A stretch of 64,000 nt of DNA from Bacillus sp. SJS. GTDB taxonomy: Bacteria > Bacillota > Bacilli > Bacillales > Bacillaceae. The position numbers and the translations under genes were made by a program. The DNA is taken from positions 124,001 to 188,000 of the forward strand of contig NZ_JAQV02000024.1 of NCBI RefSeq assembly GCF_000732485.2, written 5' to 3'. How positions within the stretch are numbered: position 1 is the stretch's first letter; every line of letters starts with the position of its first letter. Of the stretch, positions 37,025 to 50,827 are shown in pieces. The notes beneath the pieces are model-generated. The model was not told the origin of the DNA. It made no database searches and was given only the letters and a program-made list of their open reading frames with translations.

Positions 37025-37137
37025 CTCTTTTATCAAGAGCAGGCGGAGGGACAAGCCCTATGAAGCCCGGCAACCGGTTGACCATGGTCAATACGGTGCT
37101 AATTCTTGCAGCGTTTACGCTGACAGATAAGAGAGAG
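37025..37137 (+). promoter_or_regulatory. SAM-I riboswitch (S box) aptamer
   Basis: Core blocks are in order: ATCAAGAGCAGGCGGAGGGAC, GCCCTATGAAGCCCGGCAACC, a P3 hairpin on TTGACC/GGTCAA, GGTGCTAATTCTTGCAG and the closing GATAAGAGAG. It is on the plus strand, directly before the M14 carboxypeptidase gene. Its 3' strand GATAAGAGAGAGG can pair with the terminator 5' arm with one mismatch, so SAM binding should turn the gene off. Confidence 0.93.
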
Positions 37138-49710: not shown

Positions 49711-49860
49711 AATAAATCGTAAGGAATATTATGAATTTTTTATAACTTTAACGCAATTTTATAAATTTTACAAGTGATTCATGTAAACTTTCCCTGATTT
49801 TCCGGAAAAGCATTTTTTTAAAAATCATGATAAAATAAGTGGAAGCGAATACAACTCAAA

Positions 49861-50050
49861 AGCGGAGGCGCTCTAGTAAGGTAGTTCTGCTAAATGCGCG
49901 GCGTCCTGCCGCAACGCAGAACTGACCGGCCTCCTGCCGGCCCCCGACAAGCATAAGACAATCAGCCGTGGGAAAGACGTGGGAACTGACCCGCATCCTG
50001 CGGGCCCGGAGGTTGAGTGGCATATGACCTCGAGGGGCTAGGCGCCGGAG
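49861..50050. other. GC-rich structured element with three same-loop hairpins
   Basis: Outer stem GGCGC.CTAG (49867-49876) with CTAGGCGCC (50038-50046). Inside are AGTTCTGC/GCAGAACT (49883-49890, 49916-49923) and three 5-bp hairpins with pentaloops: GCGGC-gtcct-GCCGC (49898-49912), CCGGC-ctcct-GCCGG (49926-49940) and CCCGC-atcct-GCGGG (49990-50004). Read on the other strand the loops are AGGAN. It lies between the metI riboswitch and yjcH. From memory, Bacillaceae genomes carry dispersed intergenic repeats with CCCCGACAAGCATAAG, also present here. Confidence 0.75.
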
Positions 50051-50104
50051 CTAGATACAAAAACTATGTACAAACCTTACTTAATTCATCTGGAGGACTT
50101 ATCT

Positions 50105-50827
50105 GTGGAGAAGCAAACTGGAGTTGTCAAAGAAGCTTCCTTTTTTTCAGGCGCATTGAACGAAGATCTGACTGTCCTTACATATTTGCCAAAAAGCTAT
50201 TCCCCTCTGTATAAGTACAGTCTGCTGATTGCGCAGGATGGGCAGGATTATTTCAGGCTTGGGAGGATTGCCCGCCAGTATGAATCCCTGCTTGAGAACG
50301 GCGGACTGGAGAATGTAATCATTGTCGGCATTCCATACAAGAATGTACAGGACCGCCGGGCAAAATACCATCCCGACGGTGAGAAATTCCCTGCTTATAA
50401 ACGGTTTCTTGCCCATGAGCTTGTCCCGTTTCTGGACAGGGAGTTCCCAACATATCAGGTTGGACAGGGACGCGCACTCATTGGTGATTCGCTCGCCGCA
50501 ACAGTCGGATTCATGACAGCACTCGACTATCCGAGTATTTTTGGTAAAATCATTATGCAGTCCCCTTATGTTGACGAAAAGGTCCTAAATGCTGTCATGC
50601 AATACGATGCAGAGCCGAATTTGACTATCTATCATCAGATTGGCGAAAAGGAAACTGATGTTAAGACAACGGCTGGAGAAGTGCAGAATTTCATCGAACC
50701 GAATCGCAAATTGCAAAAAGCGATCGAAAAAAAAGGATTTCCTTACACATATGAAGAATTTGATGGGGACCACACATGGACACATTGGCAGCCTTTACTG
50801 CCTAAGGCGCTTAAAGCCATGTTTTAA
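50105..50827 (+). CDS. yjcH: alpha/beta-hydrolase-fold esterase, YjcH
   Basis: 240 residues from this start, cytoplasmic, of the putative esterase (Fes/IroE-like) family. Nucleophile in [11 protein letters not shown], with acid near GEKETD and histidine in [10 protein letters not shown]. Substrate unknown. GTG at 50105 is eight bases after GGAGG and gives the family's usual start near [14 protein letters not shown] at 50066 extends it by 13 residues but has only a distant GGAG. First gene of yjcH-yjcG-yjcF, in B. subtilis order. Confidence 0.85.

Follow-up and report, generated by a model that had tools for sequence, protein, structure and literature searches.

A Bacillaceae-1 module in a mosaic intergenic repeat upstream of yjcH in Bacillus sp. 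SJS, probably acting as folded DNA

The window analysed here, a 64,000-nt stretch of Bacillus sp. SJS (contig NZ_JAQV02000024.1, positions 124,001 to 188,000, forward strand), contains yjcH and, upstream of it, an intergenic element with three perfect 5-bp hairpins that share an NTCCT pentaloop: GCGGC/GCCGC around gtcct, CCGGC/GCCGG around ctcct, and CCCGC/GCGGG around atcct (Table 1). These hairpins had been pointed out in an earlier note made from the sequence alone, and they stand far beyond shuffle expectation: of 3000 dinucleotide-shuffle trials of the region, each being one shuffle read on each strand, 2992 gave no such hairpin, eight gave one and none gave two, so that chance is excluded for the cluster. 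One further NTCCT hairpin is present in the window on the plus strand (29742) and none on the minus strand, the plus-strand expectation being 0.55 (mean of 20 shuffles). The enclosing stem that the note had drawn is also present (GGCGCT at 49867-49872 with GGCGCC at 50041-50046, five Watson-Crick pairs and one T·G), whereas the GGAG at which it was said to end before yjcH is the conserved terminus of the repeat and not the ribosome-binding site of the gene. The RNA fold of a 227-nt segment is unremarkable (z of -1.60 on the plus strand and -0.83 on the minus strand); the 67-nt core folds unusually well as DNA (z of -4.51 and -3.97) and as RNA too (z of -2.86 and -3.09).

Table 1. Anatomy of the repeat and of the adjoining start of yjcH (positions within the window)
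Feature	Position	Strand	Basis
Whole mosaic repeat: palindromic carrier with one full and one partial B1 unit	49858..50055 (about)	+	Ends AAAGCGGA...AGCTRGA, with a 6-bp stem that covaries next to them on the inner side, seen again in own genome and relatives; missing from the orthologous site of G003
Carrier 5' terminus AAAAGCGGA and 5' arm GGCGCT of outer stem	49858..49872	+	Sequence; recurrent carrier ends
Full Bacillaceae-1 (RF01690, B1) unit: AAGG strand, hairpin I with inner hairpin 49898-49912, hairpin II 49926-49940	49874..49940	+	Rfam 71.7 bits; own model R1 80.6 bits
Carrier inner part, CCCCCGACAAGCATAAGAC..., 5' arms of CCCC/GGGG and CATAAG stems	49941..49968	+	Near-same sequence in B1-free carrier of G001
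Second B1 unit, remnant: hairpin I mostly deleted, hairpin II retained at 49990-50004	49969..50004	+	R1 22.1 bits, E 0.002, internal deletion
Carrier 3' part: GGGG 50034-50037, outer-stem arm GGCGCC 50041-50046, terminus AGCTAGA 50049-50055	50005..50055	+	Sequence; G001 comparison; recurrent ends
Likely yjcH Shine-Dalgarno GGAGG, outside the repeat	50092..50096	+	GGAGG before GTG in G001, G002 and element-free G003
yjcH, likely GTG start	50105..50827	+	ORF; codons upstream to ATG 50066 not common to element-free G003, whose start is the matching GTG

The element is a copy of a known family, RF01690 or Bacillaceae-1 (here B1): the full unit aligns with model positions 1-67 of 67, above the gathering threshold of 35 bits, and has the family's two terminal loops with UCCU-type bases (loop I GTCCT, loop II CTCCT) and covarying stems. 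The three hairpins are consequently not three equal modules, the first two making up one RF01690 unit and the third being the remnant of a second unit. The model R1 was built from 32 copies, with the window copy (L012) among them. In the parts of the literature covered here, the family was described in 2010 by Weinberg et al. and rated 'Y' as RNA and 'n' as cis-regulatory (PMC2864571), its strand was called uncertain and its reverse complement proposed as a CsrA binder (Gardner and Eldai 2014, PMC4333381), and a 2022 survey lists it among the most abundant sRNA families (PMC9029176). RF01690 is thus catalogued as an sRNA gene, whereas here B1 behaves as a mobile DNA module within a larger carrier. 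No statement of Bacillaceae-1 as a mobile DNA element was met in the portions of the RF01690 literature covered, subscription journals being mostly outside that coverage, and the novelty of such a reading is not proven.

The repeat is a bystander at yjcH, lying upstream of the gene's own ribosome-binding site; comparison of the upstream regions indicates that yjcH likely starts at the GTG, with its own Shine-Dalgarno sequence, given in Table 1. Metabacillus mangrovi KCTC 33872 (G003; L202, which equals L303 over 3720 bases), whose YjcH is 83% identical, has a repeat-free upstream region with the GTG start and GGAGG intact, and its closeness makes Metabacillus the probable source of the window too; the upstream regions of the relatives G001 and G002 contain arrays of at least two carriers, some with B1 and some free of it. 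A search with model R1 places B1 close to yjcH at 3 of 30 loci from the own genome and its relatives (own, G001, G002; 271 upstream bases available at L209) and upstream of yjcH at none of 80 loci drawn from named genomes (the best 80 of 88; 45, 978 and 798 upstream bases at L321, L336 and L363), a set that overlaps the first (L303 equals G003) and whose one match, at L348, lies more than 1 kb downstream of the gene. These counts do not support the proposal that the hairpins are a cis element of yjcH. The window also holds two SAM riboswitches (RF00162; 49603-49712, minus strand, and 37027-37133, plus strand), one of which precedes a divergent gene pair adjoining yjcH.

Copies of B1 are numerous and unevenly distributed. 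The own genome has 27 matches to B1 and 35 DNA matches, mostly partial, to the whole element. Searches with Infernal's stricter filters found B1 in 32 of 60 genomes (the own genome included; 0 to 66 copies each), with none in G004, which belongs to the same genus as the own genome, and in 82 genomes of a class-wide sample of 398; plasmids were searched and gave no match. The search of the genome and its relatives with a structural model, which the earlier note had proposed, returned many copies, and their stems change with compensation. The carrier with AAAGCGGA...AGCTRGA ends is found in the own genus and in G044. Just inside its ends the 6-bp stem takes 29 combinations among 108 distinct carriers, where the variety alone is informative because the carriers were selected for at least five of six stem pairs and the pairing is thus forced. 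The carrier of G042 is a different element, ended by TGTTCAAAAAG, and further carriers were seen by eye in other lineages. In G042 (L109-L127) the word TGTTCAAAAAG is found 145 times, against 7 for the reversed control, as an abundant miniature element. The start of the carrier in the window (49858-49866), like that of other carriers in the own genome and in G044, contains AGCGG, which we take to be the Chi sequence of B. subtilis.

The Bacillaceae-1 motif has reportedly been described before as occurring near rRNA operons and as resembling the Desulfotalea-1 motif. In the genus g6, B1 lies just before the 16S rRNA gene: directly before it at 8 of 8 exact 16S sites in G020 and at 3 of 8 in G009, where one of four leaders read contains B1 and three contain another hairpin. 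Four leaders of G015 are free of B1 and one is filled; G026 and G035 each have one filled and one free leader. B1 is co-oriented with 16S in L031, L032, L033, L045 and L059 and opposed to it in L026, L029 and L034; no carrier was seen by eye around B1 in the 16S leaders, and its joints, on reading, resemble few-base replacements rather than clean duplications. The leaders look as if they exchanged hairpin cassettes. A TTCG-loop hairpin sits just before 16S in L155, L164 and L173 (G009) and L172 (G023), where sister operons have B1. Elsewhere B1 is found in a 16S-23S spacer (L043), before 5S (L146 and L149, where it ends at the base preceding the gene) and between tRNAs (L146, L150), and these six copies, from four stable-RNA loci beyond g6, each run in the direction of the RNAs concerned. 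At L146 (G214:C1) three B1 copies share a single tRNA array ahead of 5S, and L149 (G243:C1, around 54 kb) has the odd operon order 16S, B1, 5S, 23S.

The G042 carrier has inverted ends and AT-rich duplications of about 5 bp: in 17 of 18 copies (L110 gave no end match), the five flanking bases match at 68 positions, against a mean of 55.5 in shuffled pairings, of which 1 in 20000 was as good (p=5e-5), with three offsets allowed and picked after viewing the sequences. Inverted arms are seen in the window carrier as well; for the own-genome carrier, comparison with G003, whose flanks are too diverged, yielded no precise insertion site or duplication.

The pairing of the B1 stems bears on whether selection acts on DNA or on RNA. 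Among 32 diverse copies, 163 cells are changed on both sides of a pair and none on one side only (G·U-type), and 98.3% of 544 cells are paired, with nine unpaired, these copies being high scorers, which favours perfect pairs. The earlier note's observation that structure and loop are kept while the stems covary was thus right and strongly so. A wider set of 201 distinct copies (from 223 matches at E up to 0.01 in 167 loci, identical copies being counted once and gapped cells omitted) has, when the first pair of helix I is left out, 2980 Watson-Crick pairs, 30 G·T, 34 A·C and 88 other combinations in 3132 cells. A SAM riboswitch control from the window and its relatives (11 of 12 matches used, L303 being omitted as equal to L202; nine distinct) gave 12 G·T, no A·C and 11 other mismatches in 285 cells, so that the G·T to A·C ratio of 30:34 in B1 differs from 12:0 (Fisher p=0.0004). 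A second control, of 53 tRNAs, has 69 G·T in 1134 cells, the program marking allowed pairs only, such that A·C cannot appear. Since a plus-strand A·C reads as G·U on the opposite strand, RNA-type wobble pairs are in evidence on neither strand, and the pair census speaks against RNA-level selection on B1. With the first pair of helix I included, there are 33 G·T and 65 A·C in 3330 cells (p=0.0016); this A·C excess, which arises at that pair, on its own leans to a minus-strand RNA.

Several bases outside the stems are nearly invariant among the 32 copies, which come from many genera: TAA, TC(C/G)T in the loop and AAC, with AGGA kept less strictly. Invariant loop bases would suit recognition by a protein that binds RNA no less than by one that binds DNA. 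Both loops are TCCT in 128 of the 201 copies and a TCGT loop is present in 47, the remainder including a few alignment artefacts; the loops are therefore not strict mimics of the anti-Shine-Dalgarno sequence on the plus strand, as had been thought. A pseudoknot between the 5' AGGA and the loops was considered and rejected, as copies with TCGT in loop I (L031, L137) have no ACGA in the 5' strand. In L018, L020 and other copies of the own genome, T-A pairs within stem I have flipped to A-T with few mismatched intermediates (by eye), which suggests copying from arm to arm.

B1 is oriented against the replication fork in 59 of 83 loci (59:24) of three complete genomes (p=0.00015), made up of 20 of 26 in G001 (p=0.009), 9 of 13 in G002 (p=0.27; one genus with G001, with which it can share loci) and 30 of 44 in G044 (p=0.023). 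Origins were placed at a dnaA-like ORF (by eye) at base 1, followed by dnaN, in G001, and by dnaN at 332 kb in G002 and 3326 kb in G044; a dif-like site with three mismatches lies at 1991 kb in G001, and none was found in G002 and G044, where termini were assumed opposite the origin. The bias is partly confounded with gene orientation, B1 being antisense to its neighbours in 32 of 48 tandem loci (p=0.03). Where the flanking genes converge or diverge, a setting in which gene direction is no help, 20 of 28 loci are against the fork (p=0.036), and six tandem loci with head-on genes follow the fork rule in four cases and the gene rule in two; this table, in which genes were called by ORF length only, leaves out 7 of the 83 loci (six inside an ORF, one at an edge). 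In an earlier, overlapping set from many genomes, 51 tandem loci were balanced (21 sense, 30 antisense, p=0.26); 92 loci had been entered, of which three with an ORF across the element and seven without a gene on one side stayed unclassified, genes again being called by ORF length only and L025, L026, L029, L031, L034, L043, L045, L146, L149 and L150 (stable-RNA operons or contig ends) being excluded. The tandem leanings differ between genomes, with nine sense and four antisense in G042 against 4:18 in the own genome plus G044 (p=0.004).

Y1 transposases do not fit well as movers of B1. No B1 match (E up to 1) was found in 22 Y1-transposase loci (18 RAYT-like or other, four IS200-like), and a looser motif scan of 18 of the 22 gave one NTCCT hairpin each for L182 and L197, and for L193 the word AAAGCGGA once; a Y1 family match is present in 24 of 32 genomes with B1 and 16 of 28 others (p=0.18), and absent from 8 of the 32. 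The duplications of G042 point instead to a cut-and-paste (DDE-type) carrier, not a single-strand transposase, and the mobilising enzyme may thus differ between carriers. An autonomous parent of the G042 carrier was sought at three places where end words lie 2.5-4.4 kb apart (L229, L230, L231; spacings drawn from the first 100 of the 145 places listed) and at L232 and L233; their long ORFs look like ordinary genes, with no transposase seen by eye.

On balance, these data make it probable that the element at yjcH belongs to an intergenic DNA repeat that is mosaic and non-autonomous, and that its B1 module acts as folded DNA. The elements occur in many copies and in both orientations, vary between close relatives, occupy sites that are filled in one place and free in another, ride in different carriers in different lineages and covary by nearly strand-symmetric Watson-Crick exchanges, in keeping with the mobile repeat that was among the first guesses about this locus. 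A palindromic carrier with AAAGCGGA and AGCTRGA ends holds the 67-bp B1 module, here once whole and once as its last hairpin. The module may work as single-stranded hairpins or as a cruciform, recognised by its shape together with the nearly invariant bases named above, AGGA again less strictly. Exposure of its hairpins probably takes place at the replication fork and would account for the orientation bias; a putative trans-acting transposase or recombinase could then copy or move the module.

Other explanations account for parts of the same evidence. B1 might be a passenger without recognition of its own, moved in carriers by ordinary transposases while template switching between arms (quasi-palindrome correction) keeps the stems perfect; the differing carriers of different lineages, the target duplications in G042 and the nearly strand-symmetric pairs with few intermediates agree with this, which we nevertheless regard as unlikely, since correction of stems cannot explain nearly invariant loops and junctions in 32 copies from many genera, and B1 also stands in rRNA leaders where by eye no carrier is visible. 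Similarly unlikely, in our estimation, is that B1 is an RNA element, for instance a hairpin for processing or protein binding within transcripts of pre-rRNA, tRNA and mRNA, with the other copies as by-products. Its exact placement before 16S in G020, up to 5S and between tRNAs would suit such a hairpin, as would the stability of the core as an RNA fold; eight Bacillaceae-1 annotations are moreover given for B. subtilis in the part covered of PMC8208703. The co-orientation of the six copies at stable RNAs outside g6 we count against the DNA reading. Against the RNA element are the B1-free leaders in sister operons of one genome, the inverted copies at the same place, the different hairpin that takes that place in G009 and G023, and the pair census, which has no G·U excess.

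A further explanation, namely that transcription of the minus strand yields AGGA loops which sequester CsrA in the manner of CsrB and RsmZ, had been raised in the earlier note and is not supported; we consider it very unlikely. The likeness to those CsrA-binding RNAs lies in the AGGA of the minus-strand hairpin loops. The surplus of A·C that the first pair of helix I contributes speaks for it, and the antisense position of B1 in 18 of 22 tandem loci of the own genome and G044 would mean that many copies are transcribed with AGGA loops, while G042 leans the opposite way. CsrA family members are present in 59 of 60 genomes, which suits the idea and at the same time renders co-occurrence of CsrA and B1 uninformative, csrA being present in 27 of 28 genomes without B1, so that B1 has no tie to it. 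In contrast to CsrB and RsmZ, B1 has no general G·U tolerance, the minus-strand tolerance being absent outside the first pair, and GGA is often lost from a loop, as in the 47 copies with TCGT. The CsrA SELEX loop is a hexaloop, and the AGGAY loop is one base shorter. In print, CsrA is favoured by a published motif that the RF01690 reverse complement matches (PMC4333381, as far as that source was covered).

Returning to the folded-DNA repeat, a bolder form of it, which we put forward tentatively and hold to be improbable though tenable, would make Bacillaceae-1 not an RNA family at all but the folded single-stranded DNA site of a candidate hairpin-specific transposase or recombinase of Bacilli, acting at the fork and planting the module in rRNA operons, tRNA arrays and different carriers. 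If the covariation does stem from DNA hairpins, the sRNA annotation of RF01690 and the CsrA hypothesis need revision, and other orphan RNA families could be examined with the wobble-symmetry comparison, which sets G·T against A·C on a single strand. One question would then become testable, namely the identity of the enzyme that folds, cuts and moves such hairpins throughout a bacterial class, rRNA operons included.

Among known repeats, the closest parallels are REP/BIME elements with RAYT (TnpA-REP) and the miniature elements of Bacillus. In the portion covered of PMC6006769, REP/BIME elements resemble B1 in being short palindromes between genes that occur in many copies and in arrays, keep certain bases conserved while their stems vary, and likely fold at the DNA level; lagging-strand targeting is established there for IS200/IS605 elements, and a title cited in that paper reports orientation bias for other transposable elements too. 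B1 differs in lying beside none of the 22 Y1 loci and in having conserved loops and an AAGGA strand instead of a GT[AG]G foot: its consensus 5' strand is AAAGGAA, and AGGA falls within the first 12 bases in 131 of 201 copies. MITEs, bcr1 and other Bacillus stem-loop repeats (Cozzuto et al. 2008, PMC2267715, in part) are alike in size, intergenic placement, copy number and folding, and, in the G042 carriers, in inverted ends and duplications, whereas B1 is common to several unlike carriers and to rRNA leaders. The same source, as covered, lists Bhal-1 of B. halodurans, of 74 bp and 36 copies, and Bhal-1 and B1 may be one thing.
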